IMG/VR virus record: IMGVR_UViG_3300031576_000079
Coordinates: 1 to 47,978 of that record
Strand: one strand, 5' to 3'
Length of the DNA: 47,978 nt
Origin: a virus
Of the stretch, positions 7,787 through 32,292 are shown in pieces (position 1 is the stretch's first letter; each line of letters starts with the position of its first letter). The notes under the pieces are model-generated. The model saw only the letters and a list, made by a program, of their open reading frames with translations. It did not search any database and was not told the origin of the DNA. The position numbers and the translations under genes are program-made.

Positions 7787-8267
7787 AGTCACCGTCCGAA
7801 GAGGCCGCAGCAGCAATCGCCGCGCCGAGCGCGGCGATGGGGCTGTCTTCCTTGTCGCTGACCTCAACCGATTTGAGATCGGGGATGATCTTGGACAGCT
7901 GACGGAATTGGATATCGGCGCGTTGCTGAAGCGTCTTCAGGCGCAGCGCGATCGCCTTGGCTTCTTCGTCGGTGACGGTGCCCGGCACGTAGACGATCGA
8001 GCCGTCGAGTTCACGGACCGGCTGACCCTCCTTGTCGAGCAGGATGGTGCCTTTCTTGAGGCGCGCGTTGATTTCAGCGAGTTCATCGTCGATGCGCCGC
8101 AGGTGGCCAACGATGCGGCCTCCCTTGAGTCGCATGCGGACCTTCTCTGCTTCCATCGCGATGTGGTAAGCCTTGCGAGCGTCGCGCACGCCGAGCGCCT
8201 TGCTCCGTGGCGGACCGTTGCGCGTTGTCGGCGCAGAAGGTTCGAGTTGTTCTGCCGGCGCGCTCAA
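7773..8267 (-). CDS. Putative terminase small subunit
   Basis: The open frame extends to 8402, but I favour a TTG at 8267 because GGGAGGT stands nine bases upstream and the extra N-terminus (rich in Arg and Pro) looks non-coding and runs into repeat sequence. The 164-residue product has helical, charged segments ('GHLRRIDDELAEINARLKKG', 'ALRLKTLQQRADIQFRQLS') suited to oligomerisation and an Ala-rich tail. It is assigned by position immediately upstream of terL; I see no clear DNA-binding motif. It overlaps the large-subunit start by 14 bases. Confidence 0.55.
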   Translation of the reverse strand: MSAPAEQLEPSAPTTRNGPPRSKALGVRDARKAYHIAMEAEKVRMRLKGGRIVGHLRRIDDELAEINARLKKGTILLDKEGQPVRELDGSIVYVPGTVTDEEAKAIALRLKTLQQRADIQFRQLSKIIPDLKSVEVSDKEDSPIAALGAAIAAAASSDGDCGST

Positions 8268-8411
8268 GGGCTTAGGACCTCCCAATCGGCGCGGATTCTG
8301 CCGGCACGATCGAGCCAAAAGGAACCTCACCCCCACTTCTCGCACGACCTCGACGATTGCACCAAGGGTTTTCTCGAAGAGATCGCGCACAGCGCTTCGC
8401 ACGCCCCGAGT

Positions 8412-8485
8412 TTCCTTGAGGCCGAGCAGGGCCGTGCTGCTGTTTCATTTCCCTCGGTTTTTCTTGAGGCCGACCAGGGCCGAGC
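8412..8485 (+). repeat. Direct repeats of a two-half-site motif (GGCCGWGC)
   Basis: 8412-8437 and 8460-8485 are near-identical 26-mers, 48 bp apart, sharing the core TTGAGGCCGASCAGGGCCG. Each contains two GGCCGNSC half-sites exactly 10 bp apart (8420/8430 and 8468/8478), one helical turn. Helical phasing and repetition between divergent operons point to a protein-binding array (operator or iteron). This is seen directly; the bound protein is unknown. Confidence 0.7.
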
Positions 8486-8586
8486 CTTTATTGGACGCCC
8501 GCGCGTAATAAAATACCTCGCTCGATCTCTTCCCCCTTCGGGCCGTCCTGACGCGAAGCATTTAATTTCTCAATAACTCTAGAGGG

Positions 8587-8607
8587 AGGCTCGGCCTAGC
8601 ACGGCCT
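8587..8607 (-). repeat. Inverted copy of the GGCCGWGC two-half-site motif
   Basis: The reverse complement reads AGGCCGTGCTAGGCCGAGCC, again two half-sites 10 bp apart. It lies on the early-operon side of the AT-rich core, in opposite orientation to the two copies at 8412-8485. Confidence 0.65.
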
Positions 8608-8734
8608 CTGCATTTCATGGTAAATCGTGCTTTAGCCCCCGGTAGACAAACCGTTTTCACAGATCGAGTCCCACTTGACGCATGAATCCTCGGGAAAGCA
8701 TTGCCAAAGCATTTCTCGTGCCAGTTGTGAAAAA

Positions 8735-8754
8735 CCTCGGCCTCACGGCCTTGG
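8735..8754 (-). repeat. Degenerate inverted copy of the GGCCGWGC motif
   Basis: The reverse complement reads CCAAGGCCGTGAGGCCGAGG, with two half-sites 8 bp apart. It lies about 80 bp upstream of the first rightward gene. It is weaker than the other three copies. Confidence 0.4.
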
Positions 8755-8831
8755 GTTCCTTTTTGGCGCCGATCGGCGCGAGACTCGGGGCCAGCCGAGG
8801 CTTTCGCCCCGGCCAGAACTGGAGAAGAGCG

Positions 8832-9764
8832 ATGAAGATCATCGGCGCGGGCCTCGCAGGGCTCATCGCAGGCACGATCTTTCAGGACGCGCAGATCATC
8901 GAGCGCGGCCCCGAAAGTCAAACACAGCACAAGGCCGTTCTCCGCTTCCGCAGCGACGCGGTGGGGCGGGCGGTCGGCATTCCTTTCCGCGAAGTGACGG
9001 TGCGCAAGGGCGTTTGGCTCTGCGGCGGGCGCTTCGTCGAACCCACGATTCAGTGGGCTAATCTCTACAGCCGCAAGGTCTTGGGTCGGCTCGCCGATCG
9101 CTCGATCTGGAACATCGTCCCAGTGCAGCGTTGGATCGCGCCGGAGGATTTCGCCGCGCGTCTCGTGGCGCGGTGCCGTGGGCGGGTCGCGTGGAACTCG
9201 GAGTGGCTGCCGGACGCTGCCGCCGCCGAGCCGACGATCAGCACCATTCCGCTTTCGATGATTTGCCAGATGTTCCCGGTGTTCGAGGGGCGCGCTCCGC
9301 TCCAGTTCCACTTCGCTCCGATCGAGGTAAGGCGCTATCGCATCGCGAACGCGGATGTGTTCCAGACCGTCTACTTCCCCGAGTTGCACACAGCGGTCTA
9401 CCGCGCAAGCATCACCGGCGATCTCCTGATCATCGAGTCCATCGCCGACTACTTCGACTACGACCCGAGCCGCGAGCGCTCGGCGGAGGAAGACGACAAG
9501 TTGGTCTTCGGCGCATTCGGCCTTTCGCCGAACCTCGCGACGCCAGTGGACACGACGCGGCAGCGCTACGGGAAGATCGCGCCCATCGACGAGACCGCGC
9601 GGAGGCGGATGATCGCTTTGCTGACGCAGAAGTACGGCATCTACTCGCTGGGGCGCTTCGCGACCTGGCGCAACATCCTTCTGGACGATGTTCTCGCGGA
9701 CATCGATGTGATCCGGCGGTTGATCGGCTCCGATCTTTACGAGCACACGAGGGCGATGTCATGA
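8832..9764 (+). CDS. FAD/NAD(P)-binding Rossmann protein (UDP-galactopyranose mutase / lycopene cyclase-like)
   Basis: A 310-residue protein. I start at the ATG at 8832 because GGAG precedes it and the dinucleotide-binding loop 'IIGAGLAGLIAG' (GxGxxG) then sits at residues 3-14, where it belongs; an acidic residue ends strand 2 ('QIIERG'). The C-terminus 'YGIYSLGRFATWRN...DDVLADI' resembles the FAD-contacting end of UDP-galactopyranose mutase and amine-oxidase-like flavoproteins. It is first in the rightward operon and coupled by ATGA to the next gene. The carbamoyltransferase and ThyX downstream suggest a role in base or nucleotide modification (inference). The substrate is unknown. Confidence 0.7.
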   Translation: MKIIGAGLAGLIAGTIFQDAQIIERGPESQTQHKAVLRFRSDAVGRAVGIPFREVTVRKGVWLCGGRFVEPTIQWANLYSRKVLGRLADRSIWNIVPVQRWIAPEDFAARLVARCRGRVAWNSEWLPDAAAAEPTISTIPLSMICQMFPVFEGRAPLQFHFAPIEVRRYRIANADVFQTVYFPELHTAVYRASITGDLLIIESIADYFDYDPSRERSAEEDDKLVFGAFGLSPNLATPVDTTRQRYGKIAPIDETARRRMIALLTQKYGIYSLGRFATWRNILLDDVLADIDVIRRLIGSDLYEHTRAMS

Positions 9765-10102
9765 GTTCTCTTCTCATCAACAACCCGGAGTTCTTGAAGT
9801 TGCTGCGGCAACTCGGGATGCCTGAGGGCTGCTCGCGCTTCGAGATGCTTTGCACTCCGGGCGACCATGTGCAGGTCAAGGCGACGGTCGCGCTGAAGGC
9901 CAGCGGCAACGAGGCCTTCACGAATGACTTGAAGTTCCGGCTCGTGCCTGAAGACGAGTACGAGCGGCTGAAGGCGAATGCCGACAAGTGCCACTTCGAC
10001 GAGTGGGGCAATTGCACCGTTCACGGCGGGCGCATCATGATGCCCGACGATCTCGGCTCTACTCGTCCCGTGCGTTGCGATCAGAAGAAGGAGGGCCCAT
10101 GA
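9761..10102 (+). CDS. Hypothetical protein, 113 aa
   Basis: Starts MSSLLINNPEFLKLLRQLG with an ATGA overlap to the flavoprotein gene. It has a 'CHFDEWGNCTVHGG' segment at about residues 82-95 that could bind a metal. The middle reads as a small beta fold ('DHVQVKATVALKASG', 'DLKFRLVPEDEY'). I do not recognise a family. Coupling to the flavoprotein and, through the next gene, to the carbamoyltransferase suggests expression with that block. Confidence 0.75.
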   Translation: MSSLLINNPEFLKLLRQLGMPEGCSRFEMLCTPGDHVQVKATVALKASGNEAFTNDLKFRLVPEDEYERLKANADKCHFDEWGNCTVHGGRIMMPDDLGSTRPVRCDQKKEGP

Positions 10103-10407
10103 GCGTTGATCTCAAGAAGGCCGGGGCCGATCTCCAAAGGTTCATGTACGACGAGATCGGAAAGAAGGCCGGTGCTGTCCCTGCTGATGGTGACGCGGGC
10201 ATCGTCCATCTCTTCGATATGGTGATGGCCATCCAGGTCGGCAAGGTCTCGGGCGAGAAGGGCCACCGTTGGCTCGGCTACATCCAGGGGGTGTTGGTCG
10301 CTCGCGGGGTCGCGACGCTCGACCAGATGAAAGCGATGAACCTCGCCGCGAGCAACAACGCAGAGCACAACAACATCGGGCAACAAGGCCCTTCGGAGGA
10401 TGCGTGA
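10099..10407 (+). CDS. Hypothetical protein, 102 aa
   Basis: ATGA overlap with the upstream gene; the stop overlaps the GTG of the carbamoyltransferase. The sequence is helical, with 'GIVHLFDMVMAIQVGKVSGEKGHRWLGYIQGVLVARGVATLDQMK', the pattern of small phage accessory proteins often found in early operons ('...RWLGYIQGVL...G..T..E.K..N'). Function unknown. A GGAGGA at its 3' end is the ribosome site for the next gene. Confidence 0.75.
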   Translation: MSVDLKKAGADLQRFMYDEIGKKAGAVPADGDAGIVHLFDMVMAIQVGKVSGEKGHRWLGYIQGVLVARGVATLDQMKAMNLAASNNAEHNNIGQQGPSEDA

Positions 10408-12068
10408 AGATTTGTGGCATCAAGTTGACGCACGACGCGGCGGTTGCGGGCATCGAGGATGGCCGTTTGCTCTTCTGCGTCGAGATCGAGAAGTTGGCGA
10501 ATCGTCCGCGTTACACGAAGATGAACGACAACCGCTTGATCGCGGAGATTCTGGAGCGCGAGAACTTCTACCCGGACTCCTTCGTGGTGGACGGTTGGAA
10601 GAGTTCGCACGCGGGCCAGCCGCTCGCGCCCTACCACGAGTTCGACGGGAAGCACCACGACCCGCTGACGGCCCACCACTTCGCCGAAGGTCTCGACATC
10701 GGCTGGTCGCAGCCGGTCCGCTACCGCTCCTACCACCACATGACAGGCCACATCGTCGGCAGCTATGTCACGGCCCCGTTTGCGCGGGGCCGTGAACCCG
10801 CTTTCGTCATCTCCTTCGACGGCGGGCAGAATCCGCGAGTCCACAAGGTGGACCCGAACCGGAACGGTGAAGAGATCGCCTACATCGGGACGATCCATCA
10901 CTTCTACGGCATCATCTACGGCATCATGGGCTACTACTGGGGGCCGTACAAGCGCCCCGAGGTCGAGGCGTTGTCGCTCGATCGGGTGAAGGCCGCGAAG
11001 ATGTACGGCGGGTACGAAGCGCCGGGCAAGTTGATGTCCTACATCGCGCTCGGCACCGTCAACCCGATCGTGAAGGCCGCGATGCGGGACGCTTACCGCA
11101 ACCGCGTGCTGGCGCGCAACGGCGGCGATGCGCTGCTGGGCTACCATCAGGATGGTCAGTTCGAGCACGGCTTTTGCCGCCAGATCAAGGCGCGCTTCCC
11201 CGATCTCGCCGACGCGGACGCGCTCGTGACGCTCCACGCCTTCCTCGAAGACCTCTTGGTGGAGGGCGCGCTGGCCTACATCCCCGAAGGCAGCAACATC
11301 ATCTTCACCGGCGGCAGCGCCCTCAACATCAAGTGGAACAGCGCGTTGAGGTCTGCGTTCCCGACCTCAACTGTCTGGGTGCCGCCGTTCCCCAACGACA
11401 GCGGCTCGGCACTCGGGGTCGCTGCGGCTGAGATGGTCTCGCGCGAAGATCGCTGGTCCCTCGATTGGAGCGTCTACGCGGGACCGAAGGTGGTGCCGTT
11501 CGCGCTCGACCCGCTGCCGGGCTGGATCGCCCGTCCTGCGGATGCCGAATCGGTCGCCACGACGCTGGCCGCGCATCCTTCCGATGCTGTGGTGGTCCTC
11601 AACGGGCGCGCGGAGATCGGGCCGCGCGCCTTGGGCAATCGCTCCATCTTGATGAGCGCGCAAGAAGCCGACAACAAGGCGCGTCTGAACGCGATGAAGA
11701 AGCGCGAAGAGTTCCGCCCGGTCGCGCCGATCTGCCTGGAGCGCTACGCGCCGGTCTTCTTCGAGCCGGGGTCGCCGGACCCCTACATACTCTTCGATCA
11801 CCATGTCGTCGAACAGTGGAAGCAGTTCCTCCCGGCCATCCTCCATCTCGACGGGACGGCGCGGCTCCAGACGGTGAACGCTGAGCAGAACTCCTTCGTG
11901 GCCGAGGTCTTGGAGCACTACTGCGCGCTCACCGGATTCCCAATCCTGTGCAACACCAGCGCCAACCTCAACGGCTCGGGCTTCTTCCCCGATGTTCTGT
12001 CGGCGATGCGTTGGGGCGAGGCACGGTTCATCTACAGCGAAGGTCTGCTTTGGGAGAAAATCGCATGA
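10404..12068 (+). CDS. NodU/TobZ-family carbamoyltransferase (candidate DNA-base carbamoyltransferase)
   Basis: A 554-residue protein of full family length. Start GTG at 10404 overlaps the upstream stop (GTGA), with GGAGGA upstream. Kae1-like N-terminal part: 'HDAAVAGIEDG' (10-20), metal-type histidines 'HHMTGH' (111-116), 'SFDGG' (137-141), 'GGSALNIKWN' (303-312), 'PNDSGSALG' (330-338). YrdC-like C-terminal part: 'GRAEIGPRALGNRS' (401-414), 'REEFRPVAP' (434-442), and 'CNTSAN' further on. Family members make carbamoyl-adenylate from carbamoyl phosphate and ATP and pass it to a hydroxyl. With ThyX two genes downstream, 5-hydroxymethylpyrimidine is a plausible acceptor (inference); nodulation- or antibiotic-type substrates are alternatives. 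Confidence 0.93.
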   Translation: MKICGIKLTHDAAVAGIEDGRLLFCVEIEKLANRPRYTKMNDNRLIAEILERENFYPDSFVVDGWKSSHAGQPLAPYHEFDGKHHDPLTAHHFAEGLDIGWSQPVRYRSYHHMTGHIVGSYVTAPFARGREPAFVISFDGGQNPRVHKVDPNRNGEEIAYIGTIHHFYGIIYGIMGYYWGPYKRPEVEALSLDRVKAAKMYGGYEAPGKLMSYIALGTVNPIVKAAMRDAYRNRVLARNGGDALLGYHQDGQFEHGFCRQIKARFPDLADADALVTLHAFLEDLLVEGALAYIPEGSNIIFTGGSALNIKWNSALRSAFPTSTVWVPPFPNDSGSALGVAAAEMVSREDRWSLDWSVYAGPKVVPFALDPLPGWIARPADAESVATTLAAHPSDAVVVLNGRAEIGPRALGNRSILMSAQEADNKARLNAMKKREEFRPVAPICLERYAPVFFEPGSPDPYILFDHHVVEQWKQFLPAILHLDGTARLQTVNAEQNSFVAEVLEHYCALTGFPILCNTSANLNGSGFFPDVLSAMRWGEARFIYSEGLLWEKIA

Positions 12069-18629: not shown

Positions 18630-19078
18630 GGAAGACCGAACGCGCCAGCAACGCGACGCTGCGGAAGCATCTGACCGGCAACCCCTTCATCCGGTTCCGG
18701 CTCCACCGCATCGAGAACATCGCGGGCGAAGGCACGCCCGATCTGAACTACTGCACGAGCGGGCGCGAGGGCTGGATCGAGACCAAATCGCCGGTCGAGC
18801 CGAAGCGCCCCGACACGCCGCTCTTCGGCTCGAATCACAAGATGTCGCAGGAGCAGATGAACTGGCACCTGGAACAGTGGCAGAACGGCGGGCGCTCCTT
18901 CATCTACATCGACAGCGACAAGCGCCGTCTGCTGATTCCCGGTTGGCTCGGCGATCGGATCAACACGGCGACGATCGCTGAACTCGAAGCGATGGCATTG
19001 TGGAAGGCGATGAAGCCCACGAAGGAAGATCAATGGAACGCGCTGCGACTGCGCCTCTCAGGAGTCGGCCATGACTGA
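18626..19078 (+). CDS. VRR-NUC-type nuclease
   Basis: A 150-residue protein with an ATGA overlap to the polymerase. It shows the PD-(D/E)xK core of the VRR-NUC group: 'GEGTPDLNYC' (about 32-41), 'GWIETKSP' (about 47-54) and 'QMNWHLEQWQNGGRSFIYI'. Stand-alone proteins of this group often sit next to SNF2-like helicases in phages and act as structure-specific or Holliday-junction-type nucleases. Its stop overlaps the helicase start by eight bases, which fits a joint nuclease-helicase function. Confidence 0.85.
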   Translation: MRKTERASNATLRKHLTGNPFIRFRLHRIENIAGEGTPDLNYCTSGREGWIETKSPVEPKRPDTPLFGSNHKMSQEQMNWHLEQWQNGGRSFIYIDSDKRRLLIPGWLGDRINTATIAELEAMALWKAMKPTKEDQWNALRLRLSGVGHD

Positions 19079-20615
19079 ACGGTTCAAGACGAAGCCTCGC
19101 GATCACCAACTCGAAGGCATCCGGCTCGTTGATGGCCGCACGGCCTTCGCCTACCTCGCTGAGATGGGCACGGGCAAGTCGTGGATGCTGATCAACGATG
19201 TCGCCTCGCTGTGGGGCGAAGGTCGCGTCAACGGGCTGCTGATCTTCGCCGTCAATGGCGGCCAGTGGACTTGGACCCTCAACGAGTTGCCTGCCCACAT
19301 GCCGGACTGGGTGCGTTGGCGCTCCGCCGCTTGGAGCGCGCACCAGACGAAGAAGACCGCGCACGCCCTCAACAGCATCCTCACCGGCGACGATTCGACC
19401 GAACTGCGTGTGCTCGTCATGAATCACGAAGCACTTCAGACGAAGCGCGGGTTGGAGTTCGCGCAGCGCTTCGCGACGAGCGTGATCAAGTTGATGATCG
19501 CCGTGGACGAGTCGAGCGGGTTCAAGAACCCGCAAGCGGTCCGCACCAAAGCGCTCTTCAGCCTCAAGCCCTTTTCAACCTACCGCCGCATCCTCGACGG
19601 CTTCGCAATCAACAACGGGCCGTTCGATGCGTTCGCGCAGTTCTCCTTCTTGGACGAGACGATCTTGCGGACCACATCCTACTTCGCGTTCAAGGCGGAG
19701 TACGCGGAGATGTTGAGTCCCACCAACGCCCTCGTGCAATCCGTCAAGCGTCGCTCCGGCAGTCGCGGCACGCCGCAGATCGTTGCGCGCGCACCGGACG
19801 GAAAGCCGCGCTACAAGAACCTCGACAAACTCAACGCGCTGATCGCGCCGCACTCCTTCCGCGTGTTGAAGGCTGATTGCCTCGACCTGCCCGAGAAGGT
19901 CTACACACAAACCTACTTCGAGTTGGAGCCGCAGCAGCGCAAGGTCTACGATCTCATGGAAGACCAAGCGCGCATGATCATCGAGAATGGCGAAGAGACC
20001 CCTGTGGCGCGTCTCGCTGCGCTCATGAAGTTGTCCCAGATCAACAGCGGGTTCATCATCAGCCCGATCACGCGCGAGCCAATGCCGATCGAAGGCGAGA
20101 ACCCGAAGTTGTCGCTGCTCGAATCGCGGCTGGAGACGCTCATCGAAGGCGGACAGCGGATCATCGTGTGGGCGCGCTTCCGCGAAGAGTTGAAGCAGAT
20201 CGCCGCGCTCGCCGCGCGTCGCGGCTGGAGCATCGTCCAGTACCACGGCGACACGCCGAGGGACGAGCGCATCGAAGGCATCACGAAGTTCCAAGCGGGC
20301 GAGGCCAACATCTTCCTCGCCCAGCAGCAAGTCGGCGCGACCACGATCACGCTGACCGCCGCGACCCACGTGATCTATTACAGCAACACCTTCTCCGCGC
20401 GCGATCGCTGGCAGAGCGAAGACCGCGCGCACCGCATCGGTCAGCGCAATGTCGTCACCTACGAAGACCTCATTGCGTTGAAGACGATTGACGCGAAGAT
20501 CGTGAGCGTGTTGCGGTCGAAGCGCGACTGCGCGGAACTCGTGATGGGCGATCGGAAAGACCTGTTTTCCGGCGCAATACCTGCTTCCCTTGAGGCCCCG
20601 ACTCAAGGAGAATAG
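19071..20615 (+). CDS. SNF2-like (SF2) DNA helicase
   Basis: A 514-residue protein. Motif I 'AEMGTGKSW' (about 30-38), motif II 'AVDESSGFKN' (DES in place of DEAH), a motif III region 'LDGFAINNGPFDAF' that departs from the usual LTGTP, motif V 'GATTITLTAATHVIYY' and motif VI 'QSEDRAHRIGQ'. Such phage enzymes are thought to remodel replication forks or recombination intermediates. Start overlaps the VRR-NUC gene. It ends with TAG at 20613-20615, and its last codons contain a 7-bp hairpin next to the gene-free structured region. Confidence 0.9.
   Translation: MTERFKTKPRDHQLEGIRLVDGRTAFAYLAEMGTGKSWMLINDVASLWGEGRVNGLLIFAVNGGQWTWTLNELPAHMPDWVRWRSAAWSAHQTKKTAHALNSILTGDDSTELRVLVMNHEALQTKRGLEFAQRFATSVIKLMIAVDESSGFKNPQAVRTKALFSLKPFSTYRRILDGFAINNGPFDAFAQFSFLDETILRTTSYFAFKAEYAEMLSPTNALVQSVKRRSGSRGTPQIVARAPDGKPRYKNLDKLNALIAPHSFRVLKADCLDLPEKVYTQTYFELEPQQRKVYDLMEDQARMIIENGEETPVARLAALMKLSQINSGFIISPITREPMPIEGENPKLSLLESRLETLIEGGQRIIVWARFREELKQIAALAARRGWSIVQYHGDTPRDERIEGITKFQAGEANIFLAQQQVGATTITLTAATHVIYYSNTFSARDRWQSEDRAHRIGQRNVVTYEDLIALKTIDAKIVSVLRSKRDCAELVMGDRKDLFSGAIPASLEAPTQGE
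20588..20608 (+). other. Hairpin at the 3' end of the helicase gene
   Basis: CCTTGAG (20588-20594) pairs perfectly with CTCAAGG (20602-20608) around a 7-base loop. No T-run follows, so it is not a normal intrinsic terminator. It may be the 5' boundary or processing element of the structured region that follows. Confidence 0.5.
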
Positions 20616-21255
20616 AGGTCGAGAACTGGACCACAAAAGACCCACTGGCAGGATGCCGCTCAAGGATGTCGTCGAAGGACCGCATTAGGGGCCACCGGAC
20701 TGATCGGGACTTTCTCGCCGCGAGGCGACGCAAAAACCGATCGGAGTTTGCCGGGGCCGCAGGGAAGTAGAACGAGGAAGAGCGCGCGAGGCGCGAGCCG
20801 AGTGTCGCGCTCTTCCGATCGGTGAGTAACGGGAAACCCGAACGCACCGCGCAGAGACCGCCACGCGAGCGAAAGCAGGCAAACGGTCAGGGACGCGGAG
20901 AAAGGGCCGAAGCCACCGGAGAGTTCTCAGCCACGAAGTTCCCGCCGAGTTCGGCGAGGCGAAGCGCACGACAACGCGCCCGCCCGCGACGATCGGCGAG
21001 AAAGAGGAAGCGCGCGACGAGCGCGCGAACAGCACTCCATCTCGCAAGCGTTCGAGTTCACGAGAAAGAGAGTCGTTGGTGACCGGCGACCGTCGCGAGA
21101 CGGGCGAGGCGATCCAAGGGCCGCAGAGAAGAAGACGCGACGAGGTTGAGGCGCTGGGGGAAGGAGAACCCCACTGGAGGCGAAACGCACGAGCGTCGGA
21201 AACGATCTCGTGCGTCTGCGGGCGAGCGCGCCCCGCACTGATGAGCCAGCGCAAG
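20616..21255 (+). ncRNA. Candidate large structured non-coding RNA
   Basis: About 640 bases with no credible gene. Perfect helices seen: 20715-20719/20724-20728 (GCGA loop); 20736-20743/20816-20823 enclosing 20777-20786/20806-20815 (10 bp); 20943-20947/20952-20956; 21010-21015/21021-21026; 21040-21044/21061-21065; 21090-21094/21099-21103 (GCGA loop); 21185-21193/21207-21215 (9 bp). Two GNRA-capped stems and purine-rich linkers (GAAAG, GGAAA, AGAAAGAG) are typical of large ornate RNAs such as the phage-borne GOLLD and ROOL classes, though I cannot assign a class. It lies between the helicase gene and the next operon segment on the same strand. Confidence 0.6.
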
Positions 21256-21272
21256 CACAAGAGGAATCCAAA

Positions 21273-21551
21273 ATGAAACTCACGACCGCTGACCGATTGA
21301 AGGTTGAGAAGATGGCCCTGCGAGCCATTCGCAAAGAGATCGGCAAACAGTACGGCTTGACTTCGGTCAAGATCACGATCAAGGCGACGAAGGATTATCA
21401 CTACACCGACTTCGTGGCGAAGGTTCGCTGCACGGCACTCTACAACAACGGTTGCTCGATGGGCCGCTTCGCATTCGAGGTCAGCATGAACCGCGAAGAC
21501 GGCTTCAAGCGCATCTACATCGGCTTCGTCGAGCGCAAGGTGCTGTCATGA
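21273..21551 (+). CDS. Hypothetical protein, 92 aa
   Basis: First gene after the gene-free stretch, ATG at 21273 with AGAGGAA upstream. Basic protein: 'TTADRLKVEKMALRAIRKEIGKQYGLTSVKITIKATKDYHYTDFVAKVRC'. It looks like a small alpha/beta domain. No family recognised. Coupled by ATGA to the next gene. Confidence 0.75.
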   Translation: MKLTTADRLKVEKMALRAIRKEIGKQYGLTSVKITIKATKDYHYTDFVAKVRCTALYNNGCSMGRFAFEVSMNREDGFKRIYIGFVERKVLS

Positions 21552-22081
21552 GGTTCGCCGATCGCATCTACACCGAGGTCAACGCGGAGTGGCCGAAGGA
21601 GTTGCCCGCGCTTCGACCGGAAGAGGCCGTGCGAGCGGCACGCCGTTTGTGGCGCTTCGCGACGGGCAAGACCTTCCGAGGCGAGATCAAGAAGACGAGC
21701 GGCAACCGCTACACGTGGATCATTCGAGGCATCATGGTCGTCAACGCTTCGCGCGGTTGGCGCGATCTCGTCCACGATCTTTCCCACTGCGCGCACAATC
21801 GCATCAGCGACGAGCGGCCGCACTCGGAAGAGCACGCCCAGCTGGAGTTGAAGATGGTCCGCTGGGTCGTGATGAACGGTTGGCTGGACGGTCGGCTCCA
21901 ACCGCCCGCGAAGCCGAAGCCCACGGCGATCGAGAAGGCGAAGGCGCGACTGGTCGCGCTCGATCTCCGAACGAAGCGCTGGGAGACGAAGGCGAAGAGG
22001 GCCGCGACCGCGTTGCGGAAGTTGAAGTGCCAGCGTCGCGCGCTGGAGCGTCGAATCCAATCACAAGGAGAAGCCAAATGA
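21548..22081 (+). CDS. Putative zincin-like phage protein
   Basis: A 177-residue protein with 'GWRDLVHDLSHCAHNRI' at about residues 65-81 followed by 'HSEEHAQLELKMV'. The spacing HDxSHxxH plus a downstream His/Glu-containing helix resembles metallopeptidase-like phage proteins that carry HExxH variants (Asp replacing Glu here). The C-terminal third is Lys/Arg-rich and helical ('KAKARLVALDLRTKRWETKAKRAATALRKLK'). ATGA overlaps on both sides. Catalytic activity is doubtful because of the replaced Glu. Confidence 0.65.
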   Translation: MRFADRIYTEVNAEWPKELPALRPEEAVRAARRLWRFATGKTFRGEIKKTSGNRYTWIIRGIMVVNASRGWRDLVHDLSHCAHNRISDERPHSEEHAQLELKMVRWVVMNGWLDGRLQPPAKPKPTAIEKAKARLVALDLRTKRWETKAKRAATALRKLKCQRRALERRIQSQGEAK

Positions 22082-22740
22082 AGAACATCATCAAGCTGAT
22101 CGAAGAGTTGAACGACGAAGACCTCGCCGTGCGGCTCGTGCTCGACATCGACATGAACTGCCCGGACCCGGCGCTGTCGAAGTCAGGCCGACTCGCGCGG
22201 GCCTCTGTCGAGTATGTTCGGCACAACGACAATCACTGCCCGCTCTTCGATCGTCGCGGTGACCAGCAGCTGATGGCGTTCGCGGAGACGGCGGAGGAAG
22301 CGATCGCGAAGTTGGATGCCATCTGTGCGATCCAGCCCGAGAAGAAGGAGACCCCGGACCACTCGAATGGCGGACCGTTCAGCGGCGACACTGACGAAGA
22401 GAAGGGGTGCACCTGCTCGAAGGTCGCTGGGCCGCACGAAGGGTGTGGCGAGTTCGCTGACGATCGGGATTTGCCGAACTTCGCGTGCCCGGTGCACGGC
22501 ATCGAGAAGATCGCCGTGGACGCTTTCGCGCAGACCTGGGAAGCGGTCGCCAACGACATCGGCGAGGCATTGACGATCGGCGAGCGTCGCGAGCCGAACT
22601 TGACAGATCGGGTCGAGGCGGTGCTGGACCATGTCGAGCGCTACGGCGATCTCGATGAGGCCGAGACGATCGCGTATCGCGCGCTGAGTCCCGAGAAGAA
22701 GACCGAACTGGCCCGCGCTGCGATGCGCAAGTACGGCTGA
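22078..22740 (+). CDS. Hypothetical protein, 220 aa, with Cys-rich centre
   Basis: Starts MKNIIKLIEELNDEDLAVRL with ATGA overlap. The centre contains 'CTCSKVAGPHEGCGEF' and 'FACPVHGI' (about residues 117-142), enough Cys/His for one zinc. The C-terminal part is acidic and helical ('ETIAYRALSPEKKTELARAAMRKYG'). No family recognised. Confidence 0.75.
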   Translation: MKNIIKLIEELNDEDLAVRLVLDIDMNCPDPALSKSGRLARASVEYVRHNDNHCPLFDRRGDQQLMAFAETAEEAIAKLDAICAIQPEKKETPDHSNGGPFSGDTDEEKGCTCSKVAGPHEGCGEFADDRDLPNFACPVHGIEKIAVDAFAQTWEAVANDIGEALTIGERREPNLTDRVEAVLDHVERYGDLDEAETIAYRALSPEKKTELARAAMRKYG

Positions 22741-22751
22741 AGGAGAACATC

Positions 22752-23057
22752 ATGAGCCGTCCGAACTTCGATGCGAGCAGGGTCGAGATGGAACTGATCC
22801 TCAAGATCGCGGAGCGCGCGGAGCGCGAGTTGGAGGTCAACTGGCAGCGGTCCACGGCCATCATGGACCTCTGCGCGGCCAACAACTCGTGCCCGCTCGA
22901 TCTCGTCGCGATGCTGGCGGGCGATCGGGCTGACTTCAGCCACGACATCCACGGCATCCGTCGCCACATCAACCGGCAGACCGGCGTTCTGGAGGATTGC
23001 TTCTTGCCGCGCTTTGCCTTCGCCAACGCTGACGCGGCTCGCGCCGCTTCTTTCTGA
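22752..23057 (+). CDS. DUF6874-like phage protein
   Basis: A 101-residue protein with 'IAERAERELEVNW', 'AIMDLCAANNSCPLDLVAMLAGDRADFSHDIHGIRRHINRQTG' and 'FLPRF'. This order ('MDL.AA...CPLDL..LL....DF.HD..GI.RH..R.TG.L...F.PR') is the hallmark of a small phage family (DUF6874) common in early regions of GC-rich phages. Function unknown. Ribosome site AAGGAG precedes the ATG. Confidence 0.75.
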   Translation: MSRPNFDASRVEMELILKIAERAERELEVNWQRSTAIMDLCAANNSCPLDLVAMLAGDRADFSHDIHGIRRHINRQTGVLEDCFLPRFAFANADAARAASF

Positions 23058-23081
23058 AACAAACACAAGAGGAAAGCACAA

Positions 23082-23786
23082 ATGAAAGTCACCGCCCGAA
23101 TCGTCAACACCAAGACCACCAGCCAGAAGATTCTCGACCTGATCGCCGAGTCCATCGAGATGGACCTGCGCCAGTACGGCCAGGACAGCGAGCCGGTCGC
23201 GCTCTTCGAGTTCAACCGCCGCATCAAGGAGTCCGGCGTGATCTCGACGATGGAGTGGGCTTCCGCCGATCTCGTCACCTGCGCCGTGCGCGCCCGGATG
23301 ACGCAGCGGATGCTCCGCGCCTTCTGCTCGATGCTCTGCGACAAGAAGCCCGTGCTGGATGCCGCGCGTCACATCCACTCCTTTTTCATGGAAGAGTTCA
23401 TGCGTGCCGCTTCGGAGGGCACGAGCACGAGCGATGGCCACAACCTCGTCCGCAACATCACGACGAAGGTGCTGGCCGAGATGGCGCGCGGCTGGACCGG
23501 CGGAGCGATGGTGAAGTTGGTCGAGCGCATGGAGCGTCTCTTCGAGGAAGCCGATGGCACCCCGGCGGGCATCAACGACTTCGCGCTGCGTGAGGAAGAG
23601 ATCGTGGCGCTCGATCTGCGCGGTCTCGCTGCTGAGCGTCCGATGACCGAAGCCGAGTTGGTCGAGGCGAAGAATCGCGGCTCTGAGAGCACGACCGTGT
23701 CGGAGTTCGGCTGGCGCTTCGAGCAGGCGAGCGACAAGTGCCTCGCTGCGGCGAAGAAGCGCGCCGCTGAGAAGGCGAAGCGCTGA
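23082..23786 (+). CDS. Hypothetical protein, 234 aa
   Basis: Starts MKVTARIVNTKTTSQKILDLI after AGAGGAAAG. Mostly helical; the C-terminus is Ala/Lys/Arg-rich ('CLAAAKKRAAEKAKR') and may bind nucleic acid. The central 'LVRNITTKVLAEMARGWTGGAMVKLVERMERLF' could be a helical bundle. No family recognised. Confidence 0.75.
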   Translation: MKVTARIVNTKTTSQKILDLIAESIEMDLRQYGQDSEPVALFEFNRRIKESGVISTMEWASADLVTCAVRARMTQRMLRAFCSMLCDKKPVLDAARHIHSFFMEEFMRAASEGTSTSDGHNLVRNITTKVLAEMARGWTGGAMVKLVERMERLFEEADGTPAGINDFALREEEIVALDLRGLAAERPMTEAELVEAKNRGSESTTVSEFGWRFEQASDKCLAAAKKRAAEKAKR

Positions 23787-24025
23787 TGGCTCGCGAACTC
23801 TTGATGGAGAAGAAGTTGCGCGCGTGGGCGGAAGAGAAGGGTGTGAAGGTGGTGAGCGTTCGGCGCCACCACCATCTCGTCGCCGTCATCGAGCGCAGCG
23901 GGCATCGTCGAACCGTCACCATGAGTGTGACCCCAAGCGATCACCGGGCGGAACTGAACGCGCGTTCAGTTTTCAACCGCGTGGTCAAACAGATCGAAGA
24001 AAAGGAGAAGCACAATGGATCTTGA
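23786..24025 (+). CDS. Hypothetical protein, 79 aa
   Basis: TGATG overlap with the upstream gene. Shows a small fold with 'VKVVSVRRHHHLVAVIERSGHRRTVTMSVTPSDHRAELNARSVFNRVV'; the segment 'TPSDHRA..N...V.R' recurs in short phage proteins. A His-rich stretch RRHHH is at about residues 26-30. Function unknown. Confidence 0.7.
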   Translation: MARELLMEKKLRAWAEEKGVKVVSVRRHHHLVAVIERSGHRRTVTMSVTPSDHRAELNARSVFNRVVKQIEEKEKHNGS

Positions 24026-24329
24026 GATCAAGACGGTGGCCGTCAACCCGCAGGCGCGGGATGTGGCCATCGTGTTCTACACGAGCGACACGAAGGATGC
24101 TGCTGAAGTCCACCTCAGCGTCCGCGTGCTGCGCGACAACATGCTCAGCATCCAGTTCCGCGTGGCGAACTCGCGCGGTCAAGGAGGGTCGGCTGCGGAT
24201 CACAGCCGCGCGATCGCCATGATCTCCCAGCTGTTCGCTGAGGCCGAGAAGAAGATGATGAGCGTTTACCAGTACGTGAATGCGATCGCGCTCGGCGAAT
24301 TGCAGCGTGCGAAGGAGGAAGCCGAATGA
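24015..24329 (+). CDS. Hypothetical protein, 104 aa
   Basis: Starts ATG at 24015 (MDLEIKTVAVNPQARDVAIVF), inside the end of the upstream gene, with AAAGGAG upstream. The N-terminal half looks beta-rich, the C-terminal half helical ('RAIAMISQLFAEAEKKMMSVYQYVNAIAL'). Coupled downstream by ATGA. No family recognised. Confidence 0.7.
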   Translation: MDLEIKTVAVNPQARDVAIVFYTSDTKDAAEVHLSVRVLRDNMLSIQFRVANSRGQGGSAADHSRAIAMISQLFAEAEKKMMSVYQYVNAIALGELQRAKEEAE

Positions 24330-24592
24330 GCGTCGTGCGCTTCGACAACATGATCGCCGAACTGGACAACAACGGCAGGGCAATCCGTCTCGACATCTAC
24401 CCGAGCGTGTCGCAGGCGAAGCGCGCCAACCGCGAAGTCGAAGGTGGCGGGAAGAGCGTCAACAAGAAGCCCGCGCTGGCGGTGGGTTGCGTCATCGATC
24501 ACGATTGCCGGAGGATGAAGGAGATCAAGGTCAAAGGAGGCAAGACCAACATCGTGATCGCCACAGGCCGTCCGAAGAAGCAGAAGGAGTGA
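24326..24592 (+). CDS. Hypothetical protein, 88 aa
   Basis: ATGA overlap. Sequence 'IRLDIYPSVSQAKRANREVEGGGKSVNKKPALAV' and a basic end 'RPKKQKE'. 'SVSQAKRANRE' resembles the core of short phage proteins annotated only as hypothetical. Nucleic-acid contact is possible because of the charge. Confidence 0.65.
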   Translation: MSVVRFDNMIAELDNNGRAIRLDIYPSVSQAKRANREVEGGGKSVNKKPALAVGCVIDHDCRRMKEIKVKGGKTNIVIATGRPKKQKE

Positions 24593-24597
24593 AGCAC

Positions 24598-24855
24598 ATG
24601 AAGAAGCCCAACCTGATGAAGTTCCCTCTGGTCGGCAGCGCGATCGCTGCGCTGCTCGACGAGCGGGCGAGGAAGAGCGACATCCACATCGGCCCGATCC
24701 ATCACAAGGCGACCGACAAGTACGCGGTGTTGGAGATGGGCCTCACGCGCGAAGAGAAGACGCGGGACTTGATCATCCCCGCCGAGGTCCGCGACCATCG
24801 CGCCCTCGCAGGAGTGCTCCGCACTTTCGATCACATCAACCACAACCTCAAGTGA
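24598..24855 (+). CDS. Hypothetical protein, 85 aa
   Basis: ATG at 24598 with AAGGAG eight bases upstream; a GTG at 24589 that would overlap the previous stop is possible but less well placed. Contains 'DIHIGPIHHKATDKYAVLEMGL' and 'DLIIPAEVRDHRALAGVLRTFDHINHNL'. No family recognised. Confidence 0.65.
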   Translation: MKKPNLMKFPLVGSAIAALLDERARKSDIHIGPIHHKATDKYAVLEMGLTREEKTRDLIIPAEVRDHRALAGVLRTFDHINHNLK

Positions 24856-24868
24856 AGGAGAAGCAATC

Positions 24869-25885
24869 ATGGCACACGAACTCGACATGAGCAACGGTCG
24901 CGCGAACATGGCCTACGTGGGCGACAAGCCCTGGCACGAACTCGGCGCGGAACTCCAACAGGGCGCGCCGATCGAGCAGTGGCGCATCGCGGCGGGCATG
25001 GACTGGACGCTGCGCGAAGCGCCGGTGCTCTTCAACACGGCGTGGAACCCGGATGCCCCCGGCCCGCAGTCGTTGGTCACCAAGCATTTCGACGAGCGCA
25101 AGGTGCTGTTCCGCAGCGACACGCTCGCGCCGCTGTCCGTCGTGGGCGACGGCTACCGCGTGGTCCAGCCCGCTGAGGTGCTGGAGTTCTACCGCGATCT
25201 CGTCGCCGCTGCGGGCTTCGAGTTGGAGACGGCGGGCTGCTTGAAGGGTGGCCGGAAGTTCTGGGCACTCGCCCGGATCAACAACGAGGTCCGCATCATG
25301 GGGACCGATGTGTTGAAGGGCTACCTGCTGCTCGCGACCTCGTGCGACGGCTCGCTGGCGACCACCGCCCAGTTCACGACCGTGCGCGTGGTCTGCCAGA
25401 ACACCCTCAACATCAGCGTCTACGGCGCGGACGGCAAGAACGCCATCAAGGTTCCCCACAGCCGCTCCTTCGACCCGATGCTGGTGAAGAAGGAGTTGGG
25501 CTTGGCGGGCGACACCTTCCAGCACTTCGGCGAGCAGGCCGAGCAGCTGGCCCGCACTCCGATCTCGAAGGAGCAGGCGGCACGCTTCTTCTTCGAGTTG
25601 GTCTGCGGCGATCTGCCGCCTGACATCAAGTCGAAGGAAGACCTGGCGGGCGTGCAGGGCGCGCAGACGGCGCAGCGCATCTTCACGGTCTACGATGGCG
25701 GCATCGGCCAGGACACGCGGAGTGCAAAGGGAACCGCTTGGGGCCTCGTGAACGCGGTGACGCGCTTCTACGACCACGAGCGCAACACCCGGACGCGCGA
25801 CGCGCGCATGGACAGCGCCTTCTTCGGTGAGGGCAATCGCGTGAAGCAGTCCGCGTTCCTCGCGGCGCTGAAGATCGCTGCTTGA
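24869..25885 (+). CDS. DUF932 protein (phage/plasmid-like LGT family)
   Basis: A 338-residue protein of the usual family length. It begins 'MAHELDMSNGRANMAYVGDKPWHELG', and has 'VGDGYRVVQPAEVLEFYRDLV' and 'FTTVRVVCQNTLN', all typical of DUF932 (TIGR03299). The family is common in phages and plasmids; a role in recombination or DNA binding has been proposed, but none is settled. A strong hairpin follows the gene. Confidence 0.88.
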   Translation: MAHELDMSNGRANMAYVGDKPWHELGAELQQGAPIEQWRIAAGMDWTLREAPVLFNTAWNPDAPGPQSLVTKHFDERKVLFRSDTLAPLSVVGDGYRVVQPAEVLEFYRDLVAAAGFELETAGCLKGGRKFWALARINNEVRIMGTDVLKGYLLLATSCDGSLATTAQFTTVRVVCQNTLNISVYGADGKNAIKVPHSRSFDPMLVKKELGLAGDTFQHFGEQAEQLARTPISKEQAARFFFELVCGDLPPDIKSKEDLAGVQGAQTAQRIFTVYDGGIGQDTRSAKGTAWGLVNAVTRFYDHERNTRTRDARMDSAFFGEGNRVKQSAFLAALKIAA

Positions 25886-25892
25886 CGAGTCG

Positions 25893-25925
25893 CACGGCGC
25901 GCGGGACAACACACCGCGCGCCGTG
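25893..25925 (+). terminator. Strong 12-bp GC hairpin after the DUF932 gene
   Basis: CACGGCGCGCGG (25893-25904) pairs perfectly with CCGCGCGCCGTG (25914-25925) around a 9-base loop. Only TTCTAT follows, not a clean T-run, so it may be a weak or factor-assisted terminator, or protect the 3' end of the upstream message. Confidence 0.5.
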
Positions 25926-25928
25926 TTC

Positions 25929-25934
25929 TATACT
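25929..25934 (+). promoter_or_regulatory. Possible -10 element (TATACT)
   Basis: TATACT lies 26 bases ahead of the next ATG, right after the hairpin. The matching -35 position (ACAACA at 25906-25911, 17-base spacer) is poor and falls in the hairpin loop. A new promoter here would separate the small-gene block from the DUF932 transcript. Confidence 0.3.
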
Positions 25935-25960
25935 CCGATAGGCTCAACGAAGGAGGCCGC

Positions 25961-26494
25961 ATGTTCTATCTCATCTACCTCGAACCGCTGCCGCACTGCG
26001 CCGCGAAGAGCACCAACGAAGAAGAGATGAAGGCTCACGGCGGAACGATCTTCAACTGGCAGCATGTCGTGCTGGCTGAAGACGCTCCGCTCAACATGTC
26101 TCGCGAGCAGCTGCGCCAGCTGTACCTCGCCACGGCGAGGCCCGAGGTCATCCCGCCGGAGGGCGAAGGCGAGACCGATGCGGAGTGCTGGGCGGTGTTG
26201 AAGAAGTACGAGCCGGAAGACCTGCTCAAGCCGAGGAAGAAGCGCGAGCGCAAGACGCACCACGGCGACGGTTCGCCGATCGTCCGCAAGAGCGTCGGCG
26301 TGGATCAACCGAAGCGGGCGCGCGTCAGCGGCCTCGGGAAGACCACGCTGGAGATCGCGCAGGAAGCGATCGCCGAGAATCCCGGCAAGACCCTCGACGA
26401 GTTGGTGGCGGTCTGCGTCGCGAAGGGCGCGAACGCCAACACATCGAAGGCTCGGCTGAAGAAGTTGATGGAGGTCTCCGATGGGAAGTCTTGA
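25961..26494 (+). CDS. Hypothetical protein, 177 aa
   Basis: AAGGAGG precedes ATG 25961. The N-terminal half (MFYLIYLEPLPHCAAKSTNEEEM) looks structured. The middle is a Lys/Arg linker ('KPRKKRERKTHHGDG'). The C-terminal 50 residues ('TTLEIAQEAIAENPGKTLDELVAVCVAKGANANTSKARLKKLM') read as a small winged-helix-like or HARE/SAP-like DNA-binding region. No exact family recognised. It overlaps the next gene by 14 bases. Confidence 0.65.
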   Translation: MFYLIYLEPLPHCAAKSTNEEEMKAHGGTIFNWQHVVLAEDAPLNMSREQLRQLYLATARPEVIPPEGEGETDAECWAVLKKYEPEDLLKPRKKRERKTHHGDGSPIVRKSVGVDQPKRARVSGLGKTTLEIAQEAIAENPGKTLDELVAVCVAKGANANTSKARLKKLMEVSDGKS

Positions 26495-26717
26495 ACAACG
26501 CATCGCTCTGCGCGAGCGACTTGGAGAGTGTCGGCGATTGCGGGCCAGTCATCGGCTGTCCGCCATGAATCACGGTCGCGCGGTCGCCCTCGGGCTGCCG
26601 CACGCCGACGATTATCTCGCGCTCGCGCGGCGCGATCGCAAGGAACTGAAGGCGATCCAGTTGCGGCTCAAGATGTACCGCGTCGTGCGTGAAGCGGCGA
26701 AGGAGATGCCGCGATGA
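26481..26717 (+). CDS. Hypothetical helical protein, 78 aa
   Basis: Starts ATG 26481 inside the upstream gene; GGAGG lies nearby. Highly basic and helical ('LEQRIALRERLGECRRLRASHRLS', 'RDRKELKAIQLRLKMYRVVREAAKEM'). Coupled by ATGA to the transglycosylase gene. No family recognised. Confidence 0.6.
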   Translation: MGSLEQRIALRERLGECRRLRASHRLSAMNHGRAVALGLPHADDYLALARRDRKELKAIQLRLKMYRVVREAAKEMPR

Positions 26718-27259
26718 CCGTCCAGCAACGCGACTTGCCGTTGATCTTCTTCACTGTCATCATCTCGCTGTTCTGCGTGGCCATCGCCTTCGGCGGCATC
26801 AAGGAGGCCGCGAAGTGGAAGCGCGAAGCGGCGATGCTCCGCATCGAACTCCGCGACGCGGGTGAGGCTTACGAGAAGATGCTGGCGCCGCAGATCGTGG
26901 ACATGGGCCGTCTTCTCGATGAGGTCCGGGTTCACGAGTCTGTGGACGGCAAGCATCTTTACGGTGATGCGAAGTTCGGGCGTTGCGGGCAGAGCGTCGG
27001 CGCGTACCACATGCGTGTCTCGACGCTCGAATGGCTCCGGTTCGCTCACAACTTCCCTGCCCCGCGTGGCTGCGAGGCGCAACGGAAGTTCCTGTTGAAT
27101 GAGCCGGACGCTCGGAGCGCGGCGGAGTTCTATTTGACGATCTTGCTCAGCAAGACAGGCGACCTCGACCTCGCGCTCTGTCTCTACAACGCTGGGCACA
27201 ACAGCAGCATCAAGGTCTGCACCTACAGCGGCAAGGTCCGCAAAGGAACATCGGCGTGA
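26714..27259 (+). CDS. Membrane-anchored lytic transglycosylase-like protein
   Basis: A 181-residue protein. Residues 9-28 form one membrane segment (LPLIFFTVIISLFCVAIAFG), followed by a helical neck. The Slt-type fold signature follows: Glu75 in 'HESVDGKHLYG', 'GQSVGAYHM' (92-100, where the family has GA.GLMQ) and 'ALCLYNAGH' (154-162, family A..YNAG). This points to cleavage of peptidoglycan glycan strands. It is encoded in the early/middle region, far from the amidase and spanins, so a role in DNA entry, superinfection or signal-anchor lysis is possible. Confidence 0.75.
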   Translation: MTVQQRDLPLIFFTVIISLFCVAIAFGGIKEAAKWKREAAMLRIELRDAGEAYEKMLAPQIVDMGRLLDEVRVHESVDGKHLYGDAKFGRCGQSVGAYHMRVSTLEWLRFAHNFPAPRGCEAQRKFLLNEPDARSAAEFYLTILLSKTGDLDLALCLYNAGHNSSIKVCTYSGKVRKGTSA

Positions 27260-27504
27260 GTCGGCCTTACGAGCGCAACCCGGACCGTCACGTGAACCGG
27301 GTCTACGATCAACTCAGCACGGCGATCTTGGAATCACAGGACGCTGTGCTGTGCTTGGTCGCGGAGAAGAGCGGCGCATTCAACGCGAAGCCCTACAGCG
27401 CGACGCTAGAGCGGTCTTCGTCGTGCCTTGGTCTCTTGAGGGCCAACACGACGCGGACTGAAATCACCAACATGATCTACGGGAAGAAGGAGAACGGCAA
27501 ATGA
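27256..27504 (+). CDS. Hypothetical protein, 82 aa
   Basis: Start GTG 27256 overlaps the upstream stop (GTGA); stop overlaps the next ATG. 'HVNRVYDQLSTAILESQDAVLCLVAEKS' is helical, the rest is Ser/Thr/Asn-rich. No family recognised. Confidence 0.6.
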   Translation: MSRPYERNPDRHVNRVYDQLSTAILESQDAVLCLVAEKSGAFNAKPYSATLERSSSCLGLLRANTTRTEITNMIYGKKENGK

Positions 27505-27782
27505 AAGGCGGAAGCATGAGGAACTTCGGGCTGCTGACGGGCCTGGTCCACGGCCTGGTGGCGATCGCCCACAGCGCGGAGCGCGCCAACGAAGGCACGC
27601 GGCGCTTCTCGCAGTCCATCGCGTCGGTGGACCCGGTGCACCGCTCGCGTGGCAAGGGGCGCGGCAACCTGCCCAACGGTCGCTGGACCAGCCGGACGCG
27701 CGGACGGCGGGATGCTTCGTTGCGCTCGCGCTCGAACCGGCAGAAGGCATCGAAGAAGGCGAAGGCCCGGAGGCGCGCGTGA
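27501..27782 (+). CDS. Arg/Ser-rich hypothetical protein, 93 aa
   Basis: Starts ATG 27501 (a second ATG at 27516 is possible). The N-terminal 25 residues are mildly hydrophobic ('FGLLTGLVHGLVAIAHSA'). The remainder is strongly basic with Arg/Ser/Lys repeats ('TSRTRGRRDASLRSRSNRQKASKKAKARRRA'), which suggests nucleic-acid binding. The low complexity makes it less certain, but ATGA and GTGA overlaps on both sides support translation. Confidence 0.55.
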   Translation: MKGGSMRNFGLLTGLVHGLVAIAHSAERANEGTRRFSQSIASVDPVHRSRGKGRGNLPNGRWTSRTRGRRDASLRSRSNRQKASKKAKARRRA

Positions 27783-28099
27783 GCCTCGATCTCGAACAGC
27801 GCGTCAAGCGTCTCGAAGAGCGGATGGGCATCACGCCCGCCGCGCCCGCTGCTGACGGCGACGCTCCGGTGCAACACGATCGGGTGATCGCCCATGGCTA
27901 CGCGGTCGTGCGTCGCTACACCAACCGTCCAGACGAGATCAAGATGGTCACCCTCACCGAGCCGCACGCCGCAGGCAGCGTCCGCAAGGACAACGGCGAA
28001 GCCGTCGTGCACTGCTCGATCGTGCTCGGAGCGGATGTGGACTACAAGACCTTCGGGGTGAAGGCCCCGGACTTGCCCGAGGCTCACTCCCGCCGCTGA
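27779..28099 (+). CDS. Hypothetical protein, 106 aa
   Basis: Start GTG 27779 (GTGA overlap). An N-terminal short coiled coil 'LDLEQRVKRLEERMG' is followed by an Ala/Pro linker and a beta-rich domain ('HGYAVVRRYTNRPDEIKMVTLTEPH', 'VHCSIVLGADVDYKTFGV'). No family recognised. A 66-base gap with no clear terminator follows. Confidence 0.65.
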   Translation: MSLDLEQRVKRLEERMGITPAAPAADGDAPVQHDRVIAHGYAVVRRYTNRPDEIKMVTLTEPHAAGSVRKDNGEAVVHCSIVLGADVDYKTFGVKAPDLPEAHSRR

Positions 28100-32071: not shown

Positions 32072-32167
32072 CGATCGCCTCCGGTGGGGTCCGGCTCGAA
32101 CCGGGCTGGGCGGGCTTCCTCGCCCCGGCTCGGGCCGGGCACTCGGGTCGCCGATCGGCGGTGCGCC

Positions 32168-32192
32168 CGGAGGCCATCTAAAGCGGCCTCCG
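32168..32192. other. 8-bp hairpin in the convergent intergenic region
   Basis: CGGAGGCC (32168-32175) pairs with GGCCTCCG (32185-32192) around a 9-base loop. It is near the 3' end of the early arm and has no T-run. The 32072-32292 gap holds no gene that I can support. Confidence 0.45.
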
Positions 32193-32228
32193 CGCATCCT
32201 TCTAAGTCGTTGATTCTATTGATCTTTT

Positions 32229-32248
32229 AGCCGCCTTGCGCGGCTTTT
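32229..32248 (+). terminator. Rho-independent terminator of the rightward arm
   Basis: AGCCGC (32229-32234), loop CTTGC, GCGGCT (32240-32245), then TTTTA. This is a standard short stem with T-run on the plus strand, between convergent arms, about 160 bases after the primase-helicase stop. Confidence 0.75.
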
Positions 32249-32267
32249 ACCATGTTTTCTAGGGCTT

Positions 32268-32286
32268 TCCGGCGCATGCCGCCGGA
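32268..32286. other. 7-bp hairpin just beyond the Rz1 stop
   Basis: TCCGGCG (32268-32274) pairs with CGCCGGA (32280-32286), 5-base loop. It follows the end of the leftward lysis operon by 6 bases, so it may be the hairpin that ends that transcript, although no T-run follows on the minus strand. Confidence 0.45.
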
Positions 32287-32292
32287 CGGCCC

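Follow-up and report, generated by a model that had tools for sequence, protein, structure and literature searches.

What occupies the longest untranslated stretch of a virus genome that is otherwise almost entirely coding? The genome, an IMG/VR virus record, is 47,978 bp long; it was analyzed at full length and is referred to here as the window. Its + strand replication block encodes a DNA polymerase (phrog_405), a helicase (phrog_62), and a primase, and the window also carries tail genes. A codon-model gene finder gave a coding density of 94%, and the largest gap, 657 nt at 20616-21272, extends from the helicase stop codon to the gene for a 92-aa orphan protein; all other gaps are shorter. 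A sequence-only reading of the window had described a gene-free gap of ~640 nt at this place, on the operon strand, 3' of the helicase and 5' of a block of small genes, and had proposed it as a candidate large structured RNA, possibly of a new class, with features like those of GOLLD, ROOL, or OLE. The gene model bore out both the gap and its location. The analysis below makes it likely that the stretch gives rise to a ~600-nt U-poor non-coding intercistronic RNA (or operon leader) that heads the small-gene block and owes its 3' end to a type II hammerhead ribozyme.

The stretch behind the helicase is non-coding and U-poor

The gene directly 5' of the gap (19071-20615, + strand) encodes a SNF2/phrog_62-type DNA helicase (PHROGs match to phrog_62, E = 4.7e-98). 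On the other side, a Shine-Dalgarno sequence, AGAGGA, can be read at 21260-21265 (+ strand) and is followed by the first downstream gene (21273-21551, + strand; coding score 0.67 bits per codon). No relatives of its 92-aa product were found in PHROGs, Pfam, or IMG/VR.

Six-frame scoring of the stretch detected no frame that scores as coding. The phase chi-square over 562 nt (20616-21177) was 2.8 with 6 degrees of freedom, so there is no 3-base periodicity, compared to values of 23-28 per 150 nt in the helicase gene. The T content of the stretch is 9.8% versus 18.0% in the window (+ strand), and the T minimum on either strand of the window falls here, with 9 T in 200 nt. These results establish that the stretch is non-coding. 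The absence of a coding signal, the lowest T content, and the largest gap together delimit a non-coding, U-poor RNA on the + strand that starts at the helicase stop codon and ends at the predicted cleavage site of the ribozyme (20616-21216). The T depletion is strand-specific, which is what would be expected if selection acted on an RNA rather than on the DNA.

An origin of replication was considered for the stretch and rejected; there are no tandem iterons, only scattered imperfect repeats. No sigma-70-like promoter was found, although the host may use promoters of another type. A scan for tRNA genes across the window returned none.

The 3' end of the stretch is a type II hammerhead ribozyme

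The last 78 nt of 20616-21255 (21178-21255, + strand) match the type II hammerhead family RF02276 with a score of 40.4 bits, above the gathering threshold (GA) of 37 (E = 6.6e-5 over the whole window). This is the only Rfam match in the window. All core positions in the RF02276 alignment fit the hammerhead consensus, including CUGAUGA, GAAA, the A15.1-U16.1 pair, and H17 before the cleavage site. The topology is that of type II, with stems I and III closed by loops and stem II open. Stem III (21185-21215, + strand) consists of 9 bp (21185-21193/21207-21215) closed by A15.1-U16.1, and its pairing probability in full context is 0.83-1.0. The sequence-only reading had counted this 9-bp stem as part of a novel RNA; it belongs to the known ribozyme. 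The core alignment places the predicted self-cleavage site, C17/U1.1, between C21216 and T21217 (21216-21217, + strand), followed by the 6-bp stem I hairpin (21217-21222/21232-21237; 21217-21237, + strand), the base of which pairs at high probability in full context. The CUGAUGA core, the stem II strand GCC, and the pseudoknot tail follow at 21238-21252 (+ strand). Stem II is formed by 3 bp between GCC at 21245-21247 and GGC at 21179-21181, and its predicted pairing probability alone is low.

The loop I sequence GCGC (21226-21229) is complementary to GCGC in the 3' tail (21249-21252), a contact that corresponds to the known tertiary pseudoknot of type II hammerheads (PMC3088659), which many but not all of them have. 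A fixed-position test of this complementarity over 55 phage type II hammerheads gave 41 versus 32.6 ± 2.3 in permuted sets. It is treated as supporting only because it was designed after a letter-shuffle test had come out non-significant (20 versus 16 sequences with at least 4 bp). The start codon of the downstream gene, which has a good ribosome-binding site, lies 56 nt 3' of the predicted cleavage site and 27 nt past the core motif. The 3' 78 nt is, judged by its complete core and its position before a Shine-Dalgarno sequence and start codon, a type II hammerhead that is predicted to cleave. The predicted fold of the downstream cleavage product retains the stem I hairpin.

Evidence for structure in the upstream RNA is modest

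The helices listed in the sequence-only reading are present in the RNA. Two 5-bp hairpins with GCGA (GNRA) loops are read at 20715-20728 and 21090-21103, and two nested perfect stems lie within 20736-20823 (all + strand), one of 10 bp (20736-20745/20814-20823) and one of 11 bp (20776-20786/20806-20816), with 3 nt common to both. The MFE model contains a competing partner for the former, pairing 20737-20744 with 20700-20707 (CUGAUCGG at 20700) instead. A near-repeat, GGGCCGCAGNGAAGNAGA, occurs at 20754-20771 and 21118-21135, each copy 3' of a GCGA hairpin.

Shuffled sequences and genome windows were used to evaluate these helices. Stems of at least 6 bp are at chance level (17 observed versus 17.3 in shuffles), but stems of at least 9 bp are in excess, with 3 observed versus 0.32 expected, a number reached in 0.5% of shuffles and 1.4% of genome windows. 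Two 5-bp GNRA hairpins were observed versus 0.08 expected (0/200 shuffles). When the hammerhead was removed, the long stems were reached by 2.5% of shuffles and the GNRA hairpins by 0.5%. The folding-energy z-score of the whole region is -3.1, or -2.2 without the hammerhead, versus -1.2 ± 1.4 for genome windows, and local 120-nt windows are ordinary in folding energy (mean -0.86 versus -0.44 ± 1.2). The evidence for structure in the upstream RNA is thus modest, as is the excess of long stems and GNRA hairpins. The interpretation of the stretch as an RNA element stands insofar as it is non-coding, strand-asymmetric, and contains real RNA structure, but the sole structure open to independent verification is a ribozyme of known type, which the sequence-only reading did not recognize.

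The upstream RNA matches nothing known

An Rfam search, which the sequence-only reading had proposed, returned RF02276 above GA and nothing else over the remaining stretch. At E ≤ 5 with permissive filters there was no credible family besides the hammerhead, and no group I or II intron, RNase P, or tmRNA. Membership in the GOLLD, ROOL, or OLE families is unsupported because no sequence homologue and no Rfam family match was found. A distant blastn search of INPHARED with the region gave only hammerhead and chance matches. A search with the GGGCCGCAGNGAAGNAGA motif gave 9 chance matches, none with a hammerhead or extended similarity, and a conserved-looking 17-mer and the ribozyme tail gave one unrelated match each.

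No stretch matching the upstream RNA was found in 63 helicase-related and 33 polymerase-related IMG/VR loci. The closest helicase relatives (~53% identity) have small genes after the helicase, without the upstream RNA and hammerhead there. An RF02276 search of the helicase- and polymerase-related records detected hammerheads in one only, the L047 record (G041), at 54.2 and 57.9 kb, far from its helicase.

The ribozyme is ordinary and its upstream RNA is unusual

A pattern scan of IMG/VR for hammerheads yielded at least 120 loci. Among the matches listed, a start codon preceded by a Shine-Dalgarno sequence lies ≤45 nt 3' of 57/77 verified phage type II hammerheads, and in the candidate long-gap loci that were checked, the sequence 5' of the hammerhead is tiled with small ORFs up to the ribozyme. 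Neither the window ribozyme nor its placement ahead of a small orphan gene is therefore out of the ordinary, and most hammerheads examined sit between coding genes. The sequence 5' of the window hammerhead is not ordinary. It ranks first for T-poverty among the 161 hammerheads examined and is aperiodic too. The ribozyme is of a known type, and the ~560-nt RNA 5' of it matches nothing known and is unusual among these 161.

Only two others of the 161, L245 and L242, resemble the window in having U-poor non-coding RNA upstream. L245, on a 59-kb contig, has the second most T-poor upstream sequence. The gene before its non-coding RNA is homologous to the window helicase (30.6% identity over 506 aa, E = 2e-64; phrog_62), so the order helicase, U-poor non-coding RNA, hammerhead, small gene is common to both. 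L242, on an 11.9-kb contig, ranks third in a finer scan; its T-poor stretch lies 5' of the first hammerhead in an array, and its likeness to the window is less clean. No primary-sequence similarity was detectable between the window, L245, and L242 RNAs. Helicases of the phrog_62 family are common in phages and closer helicase relatives lack the RNA, so the position shared by the window and L245 could be due to chance or convergence.

Other features were recorded in these loci. The L242 array at 6964-11502 (+ strand) comprises nine type II hammerheads, all on the same strand, that are spread over 4.5 kb with small genes in between. The U-poor RNA of L245 (reverse strand) contains a 24-nt near-perfect repeat (GGTGACG-CACAGCTAACCCGGA) at locus positions 3883-3906 and 4050-4072, with the second copy just 5' of the hammerhead. 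The Streptomyces phages Triumph (OQ190479), Issmi (NC_054667), and SqueakyClean (MF766047), with genomes of ~41.5-49.7 kb (loci L218-L220 and L254), each give 10-11 matches to the Rfam type II hammerhead model (E ≤ 0.001), all on the same strand and spread over the early-gene arm. The ones inspected sit just before small genes. A keyword literature search found no paper on the multiple hammerheads of these phages. The genome-end non-coding regions of L218 and L220 (~330-440), both from Streptomyces phages, share ~90 nt of strongly conserved sequence behind a promoter-like element, possibly a small RNA.

The RNA and hammerhead head an accessory gene block

Gene order was compared with 8 related loci (L022, L215, L255, L257, and L259-L262), in which homologues of genes 28166, 28471, and 29045 come directly after the helicase or no more than ~0.5 kb behind it. 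The distance from the helicase to gene 28166 is 7.5 kb in the window and is filled mostly by small genes, with the non-coding RNA and hammerhead in first place; the rest of the small-gene block extends over 21548-28099 (+ strand). Because the helicase and gene 28166 homologues are adjacent or nearly so in the 8 loci, the 3' boundary of the helicase is interpreted as an insertion site, and the non-coding RNA and hammerhead therefore belong to the accessory block. Elsewhere in the window, convergent gene blocks are separated by a terminator-like GCCGCCTTGCGCGGCTTTT and by inverted repeats rich in GC (32072-32292).

Proposed role of the hammerhead and alternative interpretations

Transcription, cleavage in vivo, effects on stability, and whatever function the upstream RNA may have are inferred from these observations. 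An early operon transcript would cover the helicase gene, the non-coding stretch, and the small-gene block in turn. The hammerhead would fold upon transcription and cleave after C21216. The upstream product would retain the non-coding RNA, with stem III as its terminal hairpin and a 2',3'-cyclic phosphate at the 3' end, and the downstream mRNA would have a 5'-OH end that lies 56 nt ahead of the start codon and opens with the stem I hairpin. Cleavage would let the upstream RNA and the small-gene mRNA meet independent fates, each with a protective hairpin at its new end. The hammerhead probably separates the non-coding RNA from the message of the next gene.

A simpler interpretation, which is possible without being probable, is that the stretch is a mere untranslated spacer, or else a decayed remnant of the 5' portion of an accessory cassette inserted behind the helicase. 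Only the hammerhead would then be of importance, as it is for most type II hammerheads of phages. An orphan region at an insertion site, as suggested by the closeness of the helicase and gene 28166 in the 8 related loci, with short stems at chance level, is consistent with this interpretation. It leaves unexplained a strand-specific depletion of T to half the genome value over ~500 nt and the recurrence in L245, and long untranslated spacers are rare in the window, where every other gene-model gap is shorter.

At the other extreme, the upstream stretch might be a large, ornate structured RNA of the GOLLD/ROOL kind that forms a new class, and the hammerhead would then set free a functional RNA or RNP of defined form. 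This is rather unlikely. No homologues that could provide covariation were found, the global folding energy is modest and the local energy ordinary, and the three RNAs of the window, L245, and L242 lack primary similarity. GOLLD and ROOL are often near tRNA islands (PMC12286853), whereas the window has no tRNA genes. The arguments in favor of an ornate RNA are its length, its U-poverty with A-rich linkers, the excess of long stems and GNRA hairpins, the ribozyme-defined 3' end, and the occurrence in L245 of a comparable U-poor non-coding RNA behind a homologous helicase.

That annotation overlooked a protein-coding region, for example the 34-aa ORF at 20666-20770 or the 86-aa ORF at 20822-21082, is highly improbable; low T keeps frames open by chance, but scores are negative throughout in the frames of both ORFs and 3-base periodicity is absent. 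Although phages are reported to carry vrRNA arrays interspersed with hammerheads (PMC13142463), an RNA guide or repeat system of the VIPR kind is scarcely credible here, since the region has no tandem repeat and none of the exact runs of the defining 9-16 tandem YNNGG repeats, and its soft score of 18/30 is below the maximum of 22 found elsewhere in the window.

The favored interpretation remains an intercistronic RNA or leader cut at its 3' end by the hammerhead. A further proposal is tentative and, in our judgment, unlikely: that there is a new class of large phage RNA that is U-poor, 350-600 nt long, heads an accessory early-gene block, has a hammerhead-cut 3' end, recurs after the phrog_62 helicase in divergent phages, and has its own function beyond mRNA processing. 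What hammerheads do biologically in bacteria and phages has been described as an open question (PMC6155905). A ribozyme that ends a long RNA without a protein offers a testable alternative to mRNA processing alone, in that the ribozyme may serve to release an RNA. With 10-11 hammerheads per genome in cultivable Streptomyces phages, phage hammerhead function would be directly testable in the laboratory.

Comparison with known systems

The window ribozyme shares with other RF02276 type II hammerheads the full core, the permuted form with open stem II, the loop I-tail pseudoknot, and a place in a phage operon a short distance ahead of a start codon. The ribozyme itself shows no essential difference; the ~560-nt non-coding, U-poor RNA directly 5' of it is unusual. 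Like GOLLD and ROOL (PMC12286853), this RNA is hundreds of nucleotides long, phage-encoded, and non-coding, but unlike them it has no Rfam match, tRNA island, or demonstrated conserved structure, and a hammerhead then follows. Neighboring tRNA genes are frequent with GOLLD and ROOL, although not required, and are absent from the window. Phage and prophage hammerhead arrays by small orphan ORFs, such as the Agrobacterium ardA triple array (PMC3088659; reviewed in PMC6155905), likewise place a hammerhead before a small unconserved gene, whereas the hammerhead here is single and is preceded by a long non-coding RNA rather than a coding gene. In haloviruses HF1 and HF2, a hammerhead lies 13 nt before the helicase start codon, and a transcript 5' end has been reported at the cleavage site (PMC3088659), a precedent for the processing proposed here. 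The ribozyme is 5' of an early phage gene in both systems, but in the window the helicase is upstream and the non-coding stretch is an additional element.
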